Origin: a virus
DNA length: 40,546 nucleotides
IMG/VR virus record: IMGVR_UViG_3300031224_000001
Coordinates: 1-40,546 of that record
Direction: 5' to 3' (one strand)
Position 1 is the stretch's first letter. The number at the start of each line of letters is the position of its first letter. Positions 11,952 to 40,546 of the stretch are shown here, in pieces. Position numbers and translations under genes: made by a program. Under the pieces are notes generated by a model. It saw nothing but the letters and a program-made list of their open reading frames with translations, was not told the DNA's origin and ran no database searches.

Positions 11952-12103
11952 CACATCCCCCGCCCCGTCAGAATCCACCACGCAATCCGAAAGCGTTCCC
12001 CGAAAGGCCGCTGACGCAATCCCAGCAACAATCCCCGCGCCGTAGCCAGCTTCTTCCCCCTGGCCTTCAACATATCCCGGCGCGCATAGCGTTTATTGCT
12101 CAT
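11951..12103 (-). CDS. 50-aa basic protein, duplicated in the cluster
   Basis: ATG 12103 overlaps the upstream stop (ATGA). The product starts MSNKRYARRDMLKARGKK, is Arg/Lys-rich and ends in a possible amphipathic segment (RIAWWILTG). Its first 30 codons and the 57-bp element before it are duplicated almost identically at 14103-14261. Function unknown. Confidence 0.6.
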   Translation of the reverse strand: MSNKRYARRDMLKARGKKLATARGLLLGLRQRPFGERFRIAWWILTGRGM

Positions 12104-12171
12104 AACGCGCCTCCATCAACAAATCCCGCCTCGGAATTCGGCTTTATCGCCTCATCCGAGCGGGTTGCGTT
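12013..12171. repeat. ~159-bp duplication, copy 1 (element plus 5' end of a gene)
   Basis: Matches 14103-14261 with about three differences by eye. It comprises one 57-bp linker element (12115-12171) and the first 30 codons of the MSNKRYARRD gene. The near identity implies a recent duplication. Confidence 0.85.
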
Positions 12172-12402
12172 GTATAAGAAATCCGGGCGATACGTCCGAA
12201 TCATGTCGCACGCCATTTCCGACGCGTCTCTCCCTGTTAAGTGGTGATTTCCACCAAGCACACAATAAAAAACCGATGTCGGTATTTCATGGCGGCGCAT
12301 GGTCGGAGCATCACAACCGGATTTTATCATCTCTGAGACGACACGAGCAGCAAAAGCCGATGCAGCATCTCTATTCAAAAGCATAGCATGGATCAATTTC
12401 AC
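12100..12402 (-). CDS. Hypothetical protein ending in a linker element
   Basis: 100 residues. The start is GTG 12402, overlapping the stop of the methyltransferase gene (GTGA). The body (KLIHAMLLNRDAASAFAARV, then FYCVLGGNHHLTGRDASEMA) looks like a small globular domain. The C-terminal ~25 residues, from NATRSDEAIKPNSEAG on, are encoded by a 57-bp linker element and match the end of the 14190-14849 product. Function unknown. Confidence 0.65.
   Translation of the reverse strand: MKLIHAMLLNRDAASAFAARVVSEMIKSGCDAPTMRRHEIPTSVFYCVLGGNHHLTGRDASEMACDMIRTYRPDFLYNATRSDEAIKPNSEAGFVDGGAL
12115..12171 (-). repeat. Linker element h (57 bp)
   Basis: Begins AACGC and ends GTTGAT in the minus sense, with CTCGGA/TCCGAG arms. 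It encodes NATRSDEAIKPNSEAGFVD at the end of the 12100-12402 gene, eight codons before the ATGA junction. Confidence 0.75.
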
Positions 12403-13569: not shown

Positions 13570-14193
13570 AACTACCTTTGAACCAATCCATCCTGATTCA
13601 CCTAAATTAATACGTCTGGTAATTTGTGCCTGTGCGGCAGACTTTGATTTAAATACCGATGCTTTTGAAATATCGAATGTGCAGTAACTTTTAGTCATAA
13701 ACCTGCAATCTGCTTTAACCACAAACTTTTCAACCAGACTATCCACCGAACAGCCCTTATCGGTCTGTCCGGTAATCTCTGCGTTCTGCCCAAGAATGAT
13801 CGCCTCGGCATCTTCCTTGGATAGCCCATACCCAACGGCACTAAGCGGCTCGACACCGAGCGGTTCGAGGTATTCCGGCAGCGGTTCGGGGCAGTTTTCA
13901 CAGTTCCAAAACCACCACTGATCGCCCATAGATTGGGGAGTCGAGTGCTGGTAGGTTATTCCCAGATCGCGCATTACCTTTTGCGGGTGCTCGTTCGGAG
14001 ATTCCATCATGTTGTATCGCAGATGCATTTTCATGCCTCTTCCCCCTCTTCCTCTTTTATCTGAATGGTGAGCAGGCGCGTTTCCGCATTCATCAGGGCG
14101 CTGACGCAACCCCAGCAACAATCCCCGCGCCGTAGCCAGCTTCTTTCCCCTGGCCTTCAACATATCCCGGCGCGCATAGCGTTTATTGCTCAT
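13516..14193 (-). CDS. Mosaic hypothetical protein containing two linker elements
   Basis: 225 residues if translation starts at ATG 14193, which is coupled by ATGA. An internal ATG at 14034 (MKMHLRYNMM), with GGAAGAGGC before it, may be the ancestral start. Residues 1-31 copy the MSNKRYARRD gene. Residues ~32-53 are an out-of-frame reading of a duplicated tail of the 15130-15492 gene. Then comes a Trp-rich domain (DQWWFWNCENC), element i (137-155), a second domain (FMTKSYCTFDISKASVF) and element b (209-225), which ends at the ATGA junction. Function unknown. The structure shows how the cluster is built from interchangeable pieces. Confidence 0.65.
   Translation of the reverse strand: MSNKRYARRDMLKARGKKLATARGLLLGLRQRPDECGNAPAHHSDKRGRGGRGMKMHLRYNMMESPNEHPQKVMRDLGITYQHSTPQSMGDQWWFWNCENCPEPLPEYLEPLGVEPLSAVGYGLSKEDAEAIILGQNAEITGQTDKGCSVDSLVEKFVVKADCRFMTKSYCTFDISKASVFKSKSAAQAQITRRINLGESGWIGSKVVNAEVCGSSLRDSQECLV
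13729..13785 (-). repeat. Linker element i (57 bp)
   Basis: AACGCA...GTTGAA with arms ACCGGACAG/CTGTTCGGT, compensated relative to other copies. In frame it encodes NAEITGQTDKGCSVDSLVE. Confidence 0.8.
14037..14102. repeat. Duplicated tail of the 15130-15492 gene
   Basis: About 53 bases (tgaatggtgagcaggcgcg and flanks) match 15140-15195, the 3' end of the gene at 15130. Here they sit in another frame, inside the N-terminal extension of the 13516-14193 ORF. Confidence 0.8.
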
Positions 14194-14261
14194 GACGCGC
14201 CTCCATCAACAAATCCCGCCTCGGAATTCGGCTTTATCGCCTCATCCGAGCGGGTTGCGTT
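14103..14261. repeat. ~159-bp duplication, copy 2
   Basis: Copy of 12013-12171, with the same order: linker element, ATGA junction, first codons of the MSNKRYARRD gene. At 14103 it joins directly to the duplicated tail described at 14037-14102. Confidence 0.85.
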
Positions 14262-14849
14262 GATTACCTCTAATTCATCATCAAACCCCATGACGATATT
14301 AGACCCGCCAAAAATTACAGGTATCCATTTTCCTGGTGCATGCTTAGGGCTAAATGCAGGGAATGGATCATTTCTGTAATACAGATATAACGACACTTGA
14401 AGGTGATCTTTAAAAGGAAAAGCCAAATAACTTGGAAGGCAATCATGCTTAATACACTTTTTCAAAATCAATGCGTGGAATTGATTTTCATCTTCAACCA
14501 AACATTCCTGCGAATCTCGCAAGCTCGATCCGCAGACTTTGGCGTTGTCACCCCATGCGTCCAACTCAATCACAAGTTCTTCAGGGACCACTCGTAAACT
14601 GGGAACTTCAAAACCTTCTTCCCAACACCCCGTGTCATGGTCAAAGTGTAAGCTTGAGTATTCAATATCCTTTCGCAGCTTGCTAACGATTTCGCCGTCA
14701 GGCTCTGGGATAGTGTAGCTATCAAAAGGCCCTCCGTATGTAGGTAGGTATCCATAATTCGGATGCTCGATCCACATGAAAAACGGTTCAAGTGTGATTG
14801 GGCATCTGTCGGGACACCATAGATTTTCTTTCATTGGTTTTGCGATCAT
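14190..14849 (-). CDS. Two-module hypothetical protein with linker elements
   Basis: 219 residues. AAGGAAAAGAT precedes ATG 14849, which overlaps the upstream stop. Residues 1-101 form one module (MIAKPMKENLWCPDRCPITL onward, Trp/Pro-rich). Element a (102-119) joins it to a second module (120-196, QFHALILKKCIKHDC...FGGSNIVMG), and element g (197-215) closes the protein before the ATGA junction. The second module resembles a separate small phage protein that has been fused. Functions unknown. Confidence 0.65.
   Translation of the reverse strand: MIAKPMKENLWCPDRCPITLEPFFMWIEHPNYGYLPTYGGPFDSYTIPEPDGEIVSKLRKDIEYSSLHFDHDTGCWEEGFEVPSLRVVPEELVIELDAWGDNAKVCGSSLRDSQECLVEDENQFHALILKKCIKHDCLPSYLAFPFKDHLQVSLYLYYRNDPFPAFSPKHAPGKWIPVIFGGSNIVMGFDDELEVINATRSDEAIKPNSEAGFVDGGAS
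14205..14261 (-). repeat. Linker element g (57 bp)
   Basis: Same sequence as element h: AACGCAACC...GTTGAT. It encodes the C-terminal NATRSDEAIKPNSEAGFVD of the 14190-14849 product. Confidence 0.75.
14493..14546 (-). repeat. Linker element a (54 bp)
   Basis: AACGCC...GTTGAA with arms TGCGGATC/GATTCGCA around gagcttgcga. In frame it encodes NAKVCGSSLRDSQECLVE. Confidence 0.85.
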
Positions 14850-20804: not shown

Positions 20805-21073
20805 GCTACACTGCCCTTTTCTGAATCTGACTTTTTAAGCTCTTCGGAAGCTTTCGCTGCATCCCGCATGAGCTTGCGTATTTTACTTAAATCTTTTTTT
20901 GCATCATCGAAATAGTACCGGACACAGACCCCTACCCACTTCGGTTTTTCACCTGCACAATAAAGCTCAAAGTTTTCTTTCATCACCTCACGTACCTGCC
21001 GTATCTGTGATCCGCCTTTGGGATGCAGTTCCACCACCCACGCTTCATCAAGTTTGTTGCAATCAAAACTCAT
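20801..21073 (-). CDS. Small hypothetical protein between helicase and terminase
   Basis: 90 residues from ATG 21073 (MSFDCNKLDEAWVVEL), which overlaps the helicase stop (ATGA). The C-terminal half is a charged helix (KDLSKIRKLMRDAAKAS). Preceding the large terminase, it could be a packaging accessory or even a small terminase, but there is no motif to prove it. Confidence 0.55.
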   Translation of the reverse strand: MSFDCNKLDEAWVVELHPKGGSQIRQVREVMKENFELYCAGEKPKWVGVCVRYYFDDAKKDLSKIRKLMRDAAKASEELKKSDSEKGSVA

Positions 21074-22434
21074 CCTAACGCCTCCGGGTGTCCCCAATCC
21101 TTGGGAGCGCGTTGCATGGTAAAATAACTCGTGCGAAACCAAAACGGCAATATCCCAACCCCGCCGTTTTGCTGTTTGGCGATGTCCAGATAAATTGCCC
21201 GATCCGTGACCTCATTCACTTTTGCGAGTTCATAATCAAATTTTGGGTACTTATGCAGCAACAGAATATTTTGAGCATCCTGCTCGATGTCCCCACAGCC
21301 TTTGATATCATCCATAGTCGGGGCTTTCATGGGGGCGCGCTTATCTTCGCGCCCCAACTGGCAAAGCATCAGCAAGGGGATCTCCAGTTCCTGACAAAGC
21401 TCCTTCATCACCGCCGAACAATACGAGATCACCCGCACTGGATCATGACTGCGAATATGATCCGCCGTAAATTTTTGCGCATAATCCGCGACCAGCATTT
21501 TAATCCCTTCACGCTTCGCTTTAAGCCTCACCCACGAACAGGCTTTTAAAATATCCCGATTGGCATGGAGGGTGTGCAACGGCCACTTGGAAACCGACTC
21601 CACCGCTTTATCAATATCCGCAAAGTTTTTTCCAAATGCATTTCCAGAATTAAGCTTAGGCATACTCACTTTGCCGCGGCGGCACAGCCAACGCGCCTCC
21701 AATTCATTACGGGGCATATCCATGTTCAACCATCCCACCGGCACCCCCTGCTCACACTGAAAATCCACAATATCCCCAGCCAGACTTGTTTTACCAGACC
21801 CCGGCCGCGCCGCAATGCAGGTATAACTCCCAGGCTTCAAGCCCGTAAGCGATTCATCCAAATCCTTAATCCCCGTCATCAATCCCGGCATCCCCACCTT
21901 TCCATCTCGAATATCCGCCCACTGATCTCTTATTTTTTTAAGCGACTCCTCAAACGGCATCTCATTAGTTTTTACCGGAATCAAATCAAAGAAACGCTGC
22001 GGAACTTCCATCAAAAATTCTTGCGCATTCAACGTTCCCTTTGCATCCCCCGCCACTTCATCCGCAACCTTAATCACCTGCCGCTTCATGTACAGGTCCA
22101 CCACGGTTTTGAAATAATGATGTTGGTTAAAATGAATCGGCGCCAACTCCGAACACTTCATCAAATATTGCTCATCCGGCAATTCACCCAGCAAGCCCTT
22201 TGCTCGCAAACGCTGCTGGAGCATCACCGGGTCCACATATCCATGCCGCTCGGTATGCAAATCATACAATTCCTGCACCAGCAGATGGTGAGCCGGCCGA
22301 TAAAACATTTTCGGTTGGAGGTCAAAATCCGCTTGCGCCACCGAAGGCGACTCGCAATTCATCACCATCACTCCGATCGCCGCCTGTTCAATCGCATCAT
22401 CAAATAATTTTGTATCCGTTTCCTGCATCATCAT
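21070..22434 (-). CDS. Replicative DNA helicase (DnaB-like)
   Basis: 454 residues. The N-terminal domain (about 10-110) is DnaB-like, with AAIGVMVMNCESP and PDEQYLMKCSELAP. The RecA-like domain has Walker A ARPGSGKTS (residues 209-217), a Walker B region MLVADYAQ and the conserved PLLMLCQLGRE loop. It unwinds DNA at the phage fork. It is coupled directly to the initiator gene (TAATG overlap), the usual initiator/helicase pairing in temperate phages. Confidence 0.92.
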   Translation of the reverse strand: MMMQETDTKLFDDAIEQAAIGVMVMNCESPSVAQADFDLQPKMFYRPAHHLLVQELYDLHTERHGYVDPVMLQQRLRAKGLLGELPDEQYLMKCSELAPIHFNQHHYFKTVVDLYMKRQVIKVADEVAGDAKGTLNAQEFLMEVPQRFFDLIPVKTNEMPFEESLKKIRDQWADIRDGKVGMPGLMTGIKDLDESLTGLKPGSYTCIAARPGSGKTSLAGDIVDFQCEQGVPVGWLNMDMPRNELEARWLCRRGKVSMPKLNSGNAFGKNFADIDKAVESVSKWPLHTLHANRDILKACSWVRLKAKREGIKMLVADYAQKFTADHIRSHDPVRVISYCSAVMKELCQELEIPLLMLCQLGREDKRAPMKAPTMDDIKGCGDIEQDAQNILLLHKYPKFDYELAKVNEVTDRAIYLDIAKQQNGGVGILPFWFRTSYFTMQRAPKDWGHPEALG

Positions 22435-23480
22435 TACCCCGCTGTGAAATCAGGCCGGTCACTTGACTGCCCGCCGTTTTTATTTTTTTTAGCAACCTCA
22501 TCCTTGAACAGCGACTCCTCCAAATACTTCACCGGCTTGGTCACAAACTTCGCCTCACACTCCGTCCAGTTCCCCATTTCCGCATGGTACGCCAACGTTT
22601 GCAGCAAACCCTCCACCGAACGCGCCTCCAAACCTTTGTTCACCCACAAGCCCAGAGCCCGTACCTTGCCCACCTTCAGCGGATACGCCTCCCACCACTT
22701 TTCAAAATTGGGATAATCACGAAGATCCAATTCAGGCCCCTCGCCCTTGCAAGCCTGGCCCATCTTGTTTGCAAACCAACTCGGTGGCTGCCCAATCGTT
22801 TTATCCATGCATTCCACGAAGGCCATGAGCGCGGCAACCATCCGCCCATCCCCAGGATCAAACTCCGGATTGGCCCGCAAGATCTGAAACCAAGCCTCTG
22901 CCGAAAACTGGCCAGCTCGAACCTTCCCGCTGTCCACAATCCTCTGCCAAAGATTCCGAGAATCGACAGACAGAAAATCATCACCATCACCGCCCCCGGC
23001 AGGGGGGTGTTGTTTCTTCCCTTCTTCCCTTCTTAACTTATTATCTTTCTTAGTTAGGTGTCGGGGGTCTGTCGCCACTATGTCGCCACTATGTCGGGGG
23101 TCTGTCGCCACTATGTCGGAAGGTATGTCAGAAGGTATGTCGTTCTGTCCGTCATTTTTCGGAGGTTCTGAGACGTAAGCCACGTTATCTAATAGGGTTA
23201 CGATTGTCCCTTTACCTGTCGGAACTATGTCAATTGCACCTGCGGTAACTAAGTCGCTTTTTGCTGTCCTGTAACGGCGAATTGTCCAGCCCCAGACTTC
23301 TACGTCCGAAAAGCCCAAAACACTCTGTCGTTTCTCTAGGTTTAGAGGGTTCCAGCCGTCCGAATATCTGGCCCGGTCTTGGATCAAAAGTAACAACCGC
23401 AAAGCGTCCGGCTTATGATGAATCAGCCATCGCAAACGGTCCCCGCGCCACGTCCTGAAGAATCCTTCCTTTTCAGCCAT
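22434..23480 (-). CDS. Replication initiator / replisome organiser-like protein
   Basis: 348 residues. The N-terminal ~105 residues look like a winged-helix DNA-binding domain (KPDALRLLLLIQDRARYSDG, GWTIRRYRTAKSDLVTAGAI). A repetitive linker with two VATDPRH units follows, then a C-terminal domain with NFEKWWEAYPLKVGK and ALGLWVNKGLEARS, a helicase-loader-type architecture like lambda O. The linker is encoded by the iteron array. The gene precedes the helicase and is coupled to the small gene upstream (TGATG). Confidence 0.75.
   Translation of the reverse strand: MAEKEGFFRTWRGDRLRWLIHHKPDALRLLLLIQDRARYSDGWNPLNLEKRQSVLGFSDVEVWGWTIRRYRTAKSDLVTAGAIDIVPTGKGTIVTLLDNVAYVSEPPKNDGQNDIPSDIPSDIVATDPRHSGDIVATDPRHLTKKDNKLRREEGKKQHPPAGGGDGDDFLSVDSRNLWQRIVDSGKVRAGQFSAEAWFQILRANPEFDPGDGRMVAALMAFVECMDKTIGQPPSWFANKMGQACKGEGPELDLRDYPNFEKWWEAYPLKVGKVRALGLWVNKGLEARSVEGLLQTLAYHAEMGNWTECEAKFVTKPVKYLEESLFKDEVAKKNKNGGQSSDRPDFTAG
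23030..23150. repeat. Iteron array and AT-rich stretch: candidate replication origin
   Basis: Tandem 11-12-bp units all beginning GTC: GTCGGGGGTCT (23060, 23093), GTCGCCACTAT (23071, 23082, 23104), GTCGGAAGGTAT (23115) and GTCAGAAGGTAT (23127), ending near 23150. The units are about one helical turn apart. An AT-rich run (ttaacttattatctttctt) borders one side at 23034-23052. The placement inside the initiator gene copies the lambda O arrangement. Confidence 0.65.
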
Positions 23481-23668
23481 CAGCCCACCCTCCTCAGAAG
23501 CTCACGGAAAGCCTCCACATGCGTCTGGCCGGGTTTGCGTATCTTGTCCAGGAGAGCGCAGTCTGTCTGCGTCAGCTCAATCCTGTATGCCTTCCTCTGC
23601 GGTTTCTGTATTCGCCTCCATGTAGGGGCTCCATACGCGCCATCGGCGCAGCTTCGTGTGTTCTTCAT
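23480..23668 (-). CDS. Small basic protein, possibly ribbon-helix-helix
   Basis: 62 residues, starting MKNTRSCADGAYGAPT. The C-terminal half, RKAYRIELTQTDCALLDKIR and HVEAFRELLRR, has the strand-helix-helix outline of RHH regulators. AAGGTGACTGAC supports ATG 23668; the frame is open further upstream but that part looks non-coding. It is coupled to the initiator gene, which it may regulate. Confidence 0.6.
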   Translation of the reverse strand: MKNTRSCADGAYGAPTWRRIQKPQRKAYRIELTQTDCALLDKIRKPGQTHVEAFRELLRRVG

Positions 23669-23703
23669 GTCAGTCACCTTTCTTGAGGTTACCAAGCTCT
23701 TCC

Positions 23704-23844
23704 CCCAGTTTGCGGGCTGGGTACGAAGAAGGGCTTGTACTCGCTCCGCAAAGACATCGCAGGAACGACGTGCCACCGGTGGTGACAACGAGCACAAGCC
23801 CAAAGGGGACCGGTGGATCGTTCCAAATGTGTGTCTTTGCGGAG
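23704..23844. ncRNA. Candidate structured RNA with pseudoknot
   Basis: Perfect or near-perfect pairings: 23744-23756 with 23832-23844 (13 bp, CTCCGCAAAGACA), 23762-23768 with 23818-23824 (GGAACGA), 23773-23780 with 23809-23816 (CCACCGGT). In addition, 23731-23743 (GGGCTTGTACTCG) pairs with 23789-23801 in the loop with one mismatch, which creates a pseudoknot. A small hairpin CCCAG/CTGGG lies at 23704-23721. No protein in this stretch looks real on either strand. Strand of transcription is not known. Confidence 0.6.
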
Positions 23845-23892
23845 ACTTCCCACATCCTGAACGAATCCCTGTAAAACAATCAAGAAAATTTA

Positions 23893-23922
23893 TTGCTTTT
23901 TTTTGCGCCATCCCGCTAAAAT
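23893..23922 (+). promoter_or_regulatory. Possible rightward promoter
   Basis: TTGCTT and TAAAAT separated by 18 bases, ending 37 bases before ATG 23959. A T-run inside the spacer is also close enough to end a rightward transcript of the structured region. Confidence 0.35.
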
Positions 23923-23958
23923 TTAAACTTAACCCAAAAGCAAGGACACTCACCGCGA

Positions 23959-24173
23959 TGGAACCACTAAGTTTTTTTGACATGTTTGTAATTTTTTGCG
24001 GAGTCTCCATTGTGCTGACTCTTCTCGGCCACGCTTTTTCCTGCGTCATGGCTGTGATTTTTATATTATTTTCAGAAGCTAAAGCGGCCGTAGTATTCCC
24101 GCTGTTAGGATTACTCGCCCTCCTGGGATGCTGCGTTCTGACTTTTTTTGTTACAAAATGGATTGTATTCTGA
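23959..24173 (+). CDS. Possible two-pass membrane protein (antisense to the leftward operon)
   Basis: 71 residues with two hydrophobic helices: residues ~8-38 (MFVIFCGVSIVLTLLGHAFS) and ~46-68 (VVFPLLGLLALLGCCVLTFF). AAGGA lies 12 bases before the ATG, which is rather far. Composition is far more protein-like than the opposing minus frame, and a possible promoter lies upstream. It would be a holin-like or small inner-membrane protein. It runs against its neighbours, and a leftward frame with a good ribosome site (ATG 24178, open to 23480) covers the same DNA, so it remains uncertain. Confidence 0.45.
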
Positions 24174-24200
24174 TTCATGCTTTTTCCTTCTTTTTTGTAT

Positions 24201-24215
24201 AGGTGTTCAACACCA
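24201..24215 (-). promoter_or_regulatory. Palindrome 5, at the end of the 24207 gene
   Basis: TGGTGT-TGA-ACACCT on the minus strand followed by ATACA and then a strong ribosome site AAGAAGGAAAAAGC with ATG 24178. The TGA in its centre is the stop of the 24207-24689 gene. Confidence 0.6.
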
Positions 24216-25746: not shown

Positions 25747-25816
25747 GTATATCTAATAAAAGCCACACGGCCAACCGCCCCGGACGGATTCCGGGAAACC
25801 ACCTGAAAAGGAAAAA
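25747..25816 (+). repeat. 70-bp leader repeat, copy 1
   Basis: Matches 26112-26181 with one difference. It includes TATATCTAAT, the first ACGGATT-loop hairpin (25779-25795) and the ribosome site AAAAGGAAAAA of the following gene. The whole leader was duplicated. Confidence 0.9.
25779..25795 (+). promoter_or_regulatory. Early leader hairpin 1
   Basis: CCCGG-ACGGATT-CCGGG. The loop ACGGATT is shared with hairpins 2, 3 and 4, while stems differ with compensating changes. It lies about 12 bases before the ribosome site of the 25819 gene. Confidence 0.7.
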
Positions 25817-25818
25817 CA

Positions 25819-26052
25819 ATGAGCACTGACACTAAAATCGAATGGACCGCCTCTAACAACAGTAGCTATCTCAATGGTCGCCGCACCGCCAAAAATATGC
25901 GGGCCGCAGTCCGCGAAGCCCGGCACTATCTGCGCAATGAGTTGTTGGGTGAGGGCAAAATATCCTATTTTGAGGTGGGCGATGATTTCCCCATCCGGCA
26001 GGATGAGATCAGCATCCAGACCAGATACAACTGGGTTGTTACTGAGGCTTAA
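25819..26052 (+). CDS. Small early protein, hypothetical
   Basis: 77 residues, starting MSTDTKIEWTASNNSSYLNG. Its composition is mixed, with a helical middle (TAKNMRAAVREARHYLRNEL) and a beta-like end. AAAAGGAAAAACA supports ATG 25819. It is the first gene of the rightward block and follows leader hairpin 1. No family recognised. Confidence 0.65.
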   Translation: MSTDTKIEWTASNNSSYLNGRRTAKNMRAAVREARHYLRNELLGEGKISYFEVGDDFPIRQDEISIQTRYNWVVTEA

Positions 26053-26055
26053 AAT

Positions 26056-26124
26056 ATGAGAATCACCACAAACCACAGCGCAAGCAGCTATGGCCATCCC
26101 GTCATCCCCGCGTATATCTAATCA
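26056..26124 (+). pseudogene. 22-codon remnant of a small early gene
   Basis: ATG 26056 has GAGG eight bases upstream. The product begins MRITTNHSASSYGHPVIP and stops inside the second 70-bp leader repeat. I remember longer proteins with this N-terminus in phages and plasmids, so this looks like a gene truncated when the leader was duplicated. It may still be translated. Confidence 0.4.
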
Positions 26125-26181
26125 AAGCCACACGGCCAACCGCCCCGGACGGATTCCGGGAAACCACCTGAAAAGGAAAAA
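26112..26181 (+). repeat. 70-bp leader repeat, copy 2
   Basis: Second copy of the leader found at 25747-25816, 365 bases downstream. It contains hairpin 2 at 26144-26160. Confidence 0.9.
26144..26160 (+). promoter_or_regulatory. Early leader hairpin 2
   Basis: CCCGG-ACGGATT-CCGGG, identical to hairpin 1. Precedes the 26184 gene. Confidence 0.7.
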
Positions 26182-26183
26182 AG

Positions 26184-26369
26184 ATGCATAATATCTACAA
26201 AGAAAACGGACACGAAACCCGCACGGCATACCTTGCCGCGCTGGCCACTGATTACGGGCAAAGCCTGCAACTGATTCACACCATTTCCGATACGCTGGGA
26301 AGCGCCGAAGACTTCGACGCGCTGCCCGCATTCCTGCAGGATCTGGAAGCGGTGGAGGTGTTCGCATGA
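26184..26369 (+). CDS. Small acidic early protein (NGxETRxxYL family)
   Basis: 61 residues. KENGHETRTAYLAALATDYG followed by SDTLGSAEDFDALPAFLQDL resembles a family of short acidic proteins common in plasmid and phage early regions and of unknown function. AAGGAAAAAAG precedes ATG 26184. Its stop overlaps the next start (ATGA). Confidence 0.7.
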   Translation: MHNIYKENGHETRTAYLAALATDYGQSLQLIHTISDTLGSAEDFDALPAFLQDLEAVEVFA

Positions 26370-38381: not shown

Positions 38382-38392
38382 GTGTGGAACAC
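38382..38392 (-). promoter_or_regulatory. Palindrome 7, upstream of the 38358 gene
   Basis: GTGT-TCC-ACAC on the minus strand, followed by TCCTACAAT. TACAAT would also serve as a -10 box. The upstream flank TGTGCTATA is shared with palindrome 1. Confidence 0.55.
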
Positions 38393-39691: not shown

Positions 39692-40546
39692 AATGTTCCA
39701 TCCTCATCTGCTGCCCAATCGCTTTGACCGTCAAATACATAGCCTTGGCCTTGGAAATACGTACCCGTGGAATTAGGATTAATCCTCACGCCACTATGAT
39801 TTAAAAGATCCGCGGCTACCGCGCTTGCAGACGTATTCCCTACAAACCTTAGGGTGAGGGTCAAAGTCCGCTTCTCAGTCGTGCCATCCTCAATGGTGCG
39901 ATATTGATCCTTCTTCACGGTCGTTGGCTCGTTATAGTCTTGATAAGGATCTGCCGGTGTCGATGAAAACCCCGAAAACCTTTTGGGTGTAGCCACACAA
40001 CTTACCGCATACAGACCAAACGCATCCCTCGGACTCACCGAACCAATCACATGATGCCCACTTAGATCTACCTCTGCCACACCCGCATCGCCATTATCCG
40101 CAATCGCCTCCGCCTCCGCTTCTGTCAGTTGACCCGCCAGGCGTTTGTAAATAATCCCATAATCATTACTTCCCGCAATAAACCAATCTGTATCCCACTT
40201 GGTTCCCGGCGTAATAACATCCAGCGAATTATCAAACTTGCCAAACTCATTTTTATCAGATCTCGTCCGCACCACCTTACCCGTCTGCGCCGTTGCCTCC
40301 AGCTTCGCATCCGCATTCTTGGCCACCGTACGAGTGGTCGATTGATCTGCCCTCGACTCGGATAGATGCTCCACCGTCTGAAGCTTCGGAGTTATCACAT
40401 CCAGCGAATTATCAAACTTGCCAAACTCATTTTCATCAGATCTCGTCCGCACCACCTTACCCGTCTGCGCCGTTGCCTCCAGCTTCGCATCCGCATTCTT
40501 GGCCACCGTACGACTGGTCGATTGATCTGCCCTCGACTCGGATAGA
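39688..40546 (-). CDS. Tail fibre/tail-spike-like protein, C-terminal part (continues from base 1)
   Basis: Continuation of the gene that begins at 1745. The stretch near 40205-40546 holds further 60-residue repeats. A unique C-terminal domain of ~170 residues follows, with KWDTDWFIAGSNDYGIIYKR, EADLSGHHVIGSVSP-like strands and TTEKRTLTLTLRFVG, ending GQGYVFDGQSDWAADEDGTL. An apparent ATG at 40506 is only an in-repeat methionine-like start. The distal domain would carry receptor specificity. The last 102 bases are the same as 1-102. Confidence 0.8.
   Translation of the reverse strand, partial: LSESRADQSTSRTVAKNADAKLEATAQTGKVVRTRSDENEFGKFDNSLDVITPKLQTVEHLSESRADQSTTRTVAKNADAKLEATAQTGKVVRTRSDKNEFGKFDNSLDVITPGTKWDTDWFIAGSNDYGIIYKRLAGQLTEAEAEAIADNGDAGVAEVDLSGHHVIGSVSPRDAFGLYAVSCVATPKRFSGFSSTPADPYQDYNEPTTVKKDQYRTIEDGTTEKRTLTLTLRFVGNTSASAVAADLLNHSGVRINPNSTGTYFQGQGYVFDGQSDWAADEDGTL
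40445..40546. repeat. 102-bp terminal overlap with bases 1-102
   Basis: The last 102 bases are identical to the first 102. Removing one copy restores the normal 180-bp repeat phase and keeps the fibre frame (102 is divisible by three). This is what a circular molecule or a circularly permuted genome looks like when an assembly is cut inside a repeat. Confidence 0.9.

Follow-up and report, generated by a model that had tools for sequence, protein, structure and literature searches.

RNA-based phage immunity is known from a few systems: the C4 RNAs of P1 and P7, the CI RNA of P4 and the relatives gathered in the Rfam C4 family. The P4 CI RNA pairs with the seqA and seqC sequences and shuts off replication-gene expression through premature termination (PMC4825925). 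C4 RNA is processed by RNase P; its b' segment occludes a ribosome site whilst its a' segment sets specificity, and specificity between P1 and P7 is restricted by 4 nt that differ in C4 and in the targets (PMC5320573). When P4 was used as a control in our searches, its CI RNA was recovered as C4 (RF01695, 74.9 bits), with isrK/c4-a1b1 upstream. In P4 a Phage_ASH ORF with an Icd-like C-terminus runs through the CI RNA. A 65-codon ORF nested in the same frame, which we take to be kil, starts 55 nt behind the RNA and is followed by the replication genes. Translation of these nested long and short genes modulates termination in P4.

The locus described here has a similar layout and no detectable relationship to these RNAs. 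It lies in a viral DNA of 40,546 nt (IMG/VR record IMGVR_UViG_3300031224_000001, positions 1 to 40,546), which is referred to below as the window. Integrase and excisionase-like genes suggest that the phage is temperate.

Organization of the replication operon

Reading along the minus strand, a palindromic element is followed by the start of a long ORF (24178), a structured RNA (23868-23704), a nested ORF and the genes for an initiator and a DnaB-like helicase (Table 1). The first-pass annotation, made from the sequence without database searches, had found no convincing protein on either strand across the RNA and had placed the RNA between two units. The former was wrong, since the long frame spans the whole element, and the latter is not simply so, as the element lies inside this frame and is part of the replication unit. 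The nested ORF ends in a stop codon that overlaps the initiator start, and in predicted folds a small ACCU:AGGU hairpin takes up part of its Shine-Dalgarno-like sequence.

Table 1. Features of the replication operon and its leader (window coordinates)
Feature	Positions	Strand	Remarks
Palindromic operator/promoter-like element GGTGTTGAACACC, upstream of long ORF	24199-24215	-	common to about seven operons of this phage
Long ORF (232 aa) through the structured RNA	23480-24178	-	ATG preceded by AAGGA
P0, upstream strand (GGAUUCGUUCAGGAUGUG)	23851-23868	-	can pair with 5' side of hairpin; strand identical in L003
Core hairpin P1+P2+P3 with specificity loop, candidate small RNA	23744-23844	-	z -4.98; P1 kept in L003
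P1	23744-23756 with 23832-23844		13 bp
P2	23762-23768 with 23818-23824		7 bp
P3	23773-23780 with 23809-23816		8 bp
P0, downstream strand (CACAUUUGGAACGAUCC)	23815-23831	-	P2 and P3 excluded when paired
a', loop segment GGGCUUGUGCUCG	23789-23801	-	complementary to 3' flank, 13/13 pairs including one G-U
a, target segment CGAGUACAAGCCC	23731-23743	-	directly 3' of P1
Small hairpin CCCAG...CUGGG, downstream of a	23704-23721	-	CCCGG...CCGGG in L003
Shine-Dalgarno-like AAAGGUG of nested ORF	23675-23681	-	identical in L003
Nested in-frame small ORF (62 aa)	23480-23668	-	kil-like in position only; 68% identical in L003
Replication initiation protein	22434-23480	-	phrog_9474 E 1.1e-9; phrog_270 E 6.7e-6
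DnaB-like replicative helicase	21070-22434	-	PF03796 E 2.9e-44; phrog_19 E 8.4e-59

Over the same 510 nt ahead of the nested start, the long frame is open both in the window and in a divergent relative, the contig L003, and for each of them none of 2000 shuffles left it open. The protein sequence encoded in this upstream part mostly differs between the two phages, with the open frame kept, and the long ORF has no match in Pfam, PHROG or NCBIfam. A ribbon-helix-helix fold for the nested ORF product was suggested by eye and set aside, the structural model being of low confidence and without a fold match. A membrane-like ORF of 71 aa on the plus strand (23958-24173) was likewise rejected as a partner: it lies on the strand opposite the long ORF, and L003 does not preserve its sequence. 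Direct repeats at 23059-23118, inside the initiator gene, are possibly origin iterons of the lambda O kind.

The hairpin and its strand

Three nested pairings of 13, 7 and 8 bp had been noted in the first reading of the sequence, and all three are present and build one long stem (P1, P2 and P3). The minimum free energy of the element is -65.5 kcal/mol as plus-strand and -61.4 kcal/mol as minus-strand RNA. On both strands the stability z-score is about -5.0, with none of 200 shuffles as stable, and the hairpin fold is real.

Its biology is that of the minus strand. The reported match of 12 of 13 bases between the flank and the terminal loop is correct for plus-strand RNA, where the remaining position is an A-C mismatch. 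Read as minus-strand RNA, the same position becomes a G-U pair and the match is complete. The whole window was shuffled 150 times without yielding a stem of 11 bp or more that had a 13/13 loop:flank match, and two reached 12. Taken with the conservation described below, the element is very probably a conserved, structured RNA in the replication-operon leader, made from the minus strand.

Conservation in relatives

Eight scans of viral contigs found the leader in one near-identical contig (L002/L004) and in L003, so that statements on covariation rest on two divergent sequences, the window and L003. The other contigs from these scans share with the window only a 665-aa protein family, unassigned and terminase-like by position. 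Two scans of bacterial genomes gave no relatives, the leader, the initiator and the small ORF found nothing convincing among named phages and plasmids at either the DNA or the protein level, and a scan of other loci for the same geometry gave matches at chance level only.

Compensatory change within a conserved pairing had been named at the outset as support for the structure, and it is seen in L003. All 13 pairs of the P1 outer stem are kept, with two compensatory changes; a':a keeps 11 of its 13 pairs, two of which have changed on both sides in compensation, and contains a tandem G-A mismatch; and the small hairpin downstream of a has one compensatory pair. Paired cells make up 96.8% in the alignment, falling to 28-51% when the partners are slid by 1-3 columns. 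The observed covariation was matched by 16 of 500 shuffles, the most that can be expected from two sequences. Neither P2 nor P3 is kept as such, L003 having another P2 and a UUCG hairpin.

The pairing of a with a' has been kept despite five and three substitutions in the two segments. Under random substitution, the chance of retaining 11 a:a' pairs is about 0.03 and that of retaining P1 is 0.006. The calculated loop:target duplexes are strong for the cognate combinations (-23.6 and -19.2 kcal/mol) and weak when loop and target are swapped between the phages (-11.7 and -9.8 kcal/mol). Judged by these energies, the predicted loop:target specificity has co-diverged between the two phages. The 3' arm of the stem, target a and the hairpin that follows are conserved as nucleotides whilst indels shift their reading frame in L003, and thus it is the RNA, not a protein, that is kept there.

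A further contig, L010, has the upstream sequence and ribosome-binding site of the window, and the unit of leader, ORF and initiator is replaced. Its ribosome-binding site runs directly into an unrelated gene in the initiator position, without leader RNA (L010 1-1500 compared with window 22434-24214). The leader therefore travels with the replication module.

Alternative folds of the leader

The upstream strand of P0 provides a second partner for the 5' side of the hairpin. The P0 duplex is worth about -19 kcal/mol in both the window phage and L003, and shuffles as good were obtained in 2 of 1000 and 1 of 1000 cases. The full leader has two folds that are close in energy, one with the P1 hairpin and the other with P0 and a:a'. 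The window leader prefers the a:a' fold by ~6 kcal/mol and that of L003 prefers P1 by ~2 kcal/mol. No second good copy of the complement of the loop motif was found within the leader.

The element had originally been described as a pseudoknot candidate. With P1, P2 and P3 intact this is geometrically impossible, because ~8 nt would need to span ~28 bp. Geometry allows a pseudoknot with P1 alone formed; P3 would have to open for it, as probably would P2 in this phage. Unless they do, the stem and the loop:flank pairing are alternatives.

Comparison with the CI, C4 and IsrK RNAs

The first-pass annotation had matched the element to no class, and Rfam searches at the gathering thresholds and at E up to 10 gave nothing of meaning. 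The C4 covariance model (RF01695) matches neither the window nor L003 at E up to 10, so the element is not a C4 member; it would work like the C4 family without belonging to it.

The resemblance is closest to P4. In both cases an antisense-type RNA lies in the leader of the replication operon and its loop is complementary to a target downstream, and the RNA is traversed by a long ORF that contains a short ORF in the same frame, with the replication genes next. The nested ORF has 65 codons in P4 and 62 in the window, and it begins 55-75 nt after the RNA. There is, however, no similarity to CI in sequence or by covariance model. The target here is ~60 nt ahead of the ribosome-binding site, whereas that of P4 lies on it, and in place of the seqA and seqC pair there is a loop complement on the downstream side only, the upstream P0 pairing with a side of the stem. 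No Phage_ASH or Icd-like protein is encoded here, and, unlike the satellite P4, the present phage is tailed and encodes a capsid protein and a DnaB of its own.

With the C4 RNAs of P1 and P7 the element shares a hairpin whose specificity loop varies, a target in the mRNA that follows and a specificity that, by sequence and calculated duplex energy, differs between related phages. The C4 architecture of an outer stem carrying two small hairpins with the a' and b' loops is lacking: the window RNA is one long hairpin, and the L003 fold has an outer stem, the a' region and one UUCG hairpin. The GG of the RNase P GG(W) motif is absent from the presumed 5' end, where the stem begins CUCC. The position of a relative to the Shine-Dalgarno sequence means that, in contrast to C4, the target does not occlude the ribosome-binding site; a 6-bp GUCACC:GGUGAC match to the Shine-Dalgarno sequence exists and is of chance size. 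The genes under control would also differ, a replication operon here and an antirepressor in P1 and P7.

IsrK of Gifsy-1 (RF01394) is similarly a phage leader RNA that can fold in alternative ways, and it controls translation of the phage genes downstream (PMC4825925). The element gives no match to RF01394 and differs from it in structure and in the genes concerned.

Possible function

On balance, we favour the reading that this is a non-homologous leader RNA resembling C4 and P4 CI, whose a' loop would act on a to hold the replication operon off, in trans as for C4 and CI. Target a precedes the ribosome-binding site of the nested ORF by ~60 nt, and this ORF leads into the initiator and DnaB genes. 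In a lysogen the hairpin would be made as such or excised from the leader, and its a' segment would then bind a on newly made leader in trans or, alternatively, in cis as the other fold. The pairing might silence the small ORF together with the replication genes behind it, by a block to translation or by premature termination, and ribosomes that initiate upstream, where the long ORF begins, would override this block. Folding of both phages with a blocked gave no consistent change in Shine-Dalgarno accessibility, and neither a good promoter just upstream of the RNA nor a C-rich, Rho-site-like bubble in the leader was seen.

Of the roles suggested in the first-pass annotation, that of a small RNA regulating replication or lysogeny fits best, given the compensatory pairing in the relative and the position in a replication-operon leader. 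Nothing was found in support of a packaging RNA or an RNA decoy, nor does any ribozyme family match at E up to 10 as would suit a self-cleaving RNA.

More tentatively, the element may be an antisense RNA immunity system that acts in trans and has arisen independently in a tailed phage unrelated to P1 and P4, and which has converged on the P4 layout and whose specificity comes from a co-diverging loop and target. If so, the same layout in a non-homologous RNA would suggest a recurring way to hold replication genes off, and also that searches with the C4 covariance model miss other such RNAs. The matched loop and target changes in the two phages make heteroimmunity directly testable.

As a' adjoins a in cis, a purely cis-acting switch explains the pairing equally well. 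The leader would toggle between the P1 hairpin and P0 with a:a' and so set replication-gene expression with no RNA acting in trans, perhaps depending on whether the long ORF is being translated, or on whether the initiator or the small-ORF protein is bound. The near-equal energies of the two folds, the conservation of P0 in both phages and the direct abutment of a on P1 all suit such an attenuator. We nevertheless consider it less likely, though the most serious of the rivals. The favoured fold is not the same in the window phage and L003, no ligand or protein is known, and co-divergence of cognate loop and target is usually a mark of trans immunity, although pairing in cis would also give it.

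It is improbable that the inverted repeats act as DNA, in a replication origin or recombination site where compensatory changes keep DNA hairpins. The element does adjoin the initiator gene, and a cruciform would fit the compensatory changes too. The iteron-like repeats, however, sit within the initiator gene, the usual place in the lambda O type; the odd a:a' position forms a G-U pair only as minus-strand RNA; and the neighbouring Shine-Dalgarno sequence and ORF start are conserved along with the element. There is slightly less to be said for a stability or processing hairpin of the RNase III type, with the loop:flank complementarity arising by chance. A long, near-perfect stem is the typical substrate, but chance complementarity is hard to reconcile with the retention of a:a' and P1 in L003 through the substitutions noted above. 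That the region is plain protein-coding sequence with structure as a by-product is very improbable: both phages keep the minus-strand frame open, but the amino acids upstream of the nested ORF are mostly not conserved and the 3' half of the RNA is framed differently in the two phages with its nucleotides conserved.

Other features of the genome

The palindrome AGGTGTTnnACACCTnTACA occurs in front of about seven minus-strand operons (at 38392, 30791, 24214, 17714, 15549, 11535 and 10238), in places between TTGACA and TnTACA hexamers, and is also present in L003 and L010. With 13 matches against 0.11 expected, it looks like a phage-wide operator/promoter. Tandem repeat units of 180 nt lie at both ends of the record (1-540 and 40207-40506) and are 97-98% identical, and the genome may therefore be circular or complete. 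A 75-nt direct repeat (25747-25821 and 26112-26186, 96% identical) ends at an ATG in each copy. Another direct repeat, of 168 nt (12005-12172 and 14095-14262), is 98% identical between copies ~2 kb apart.
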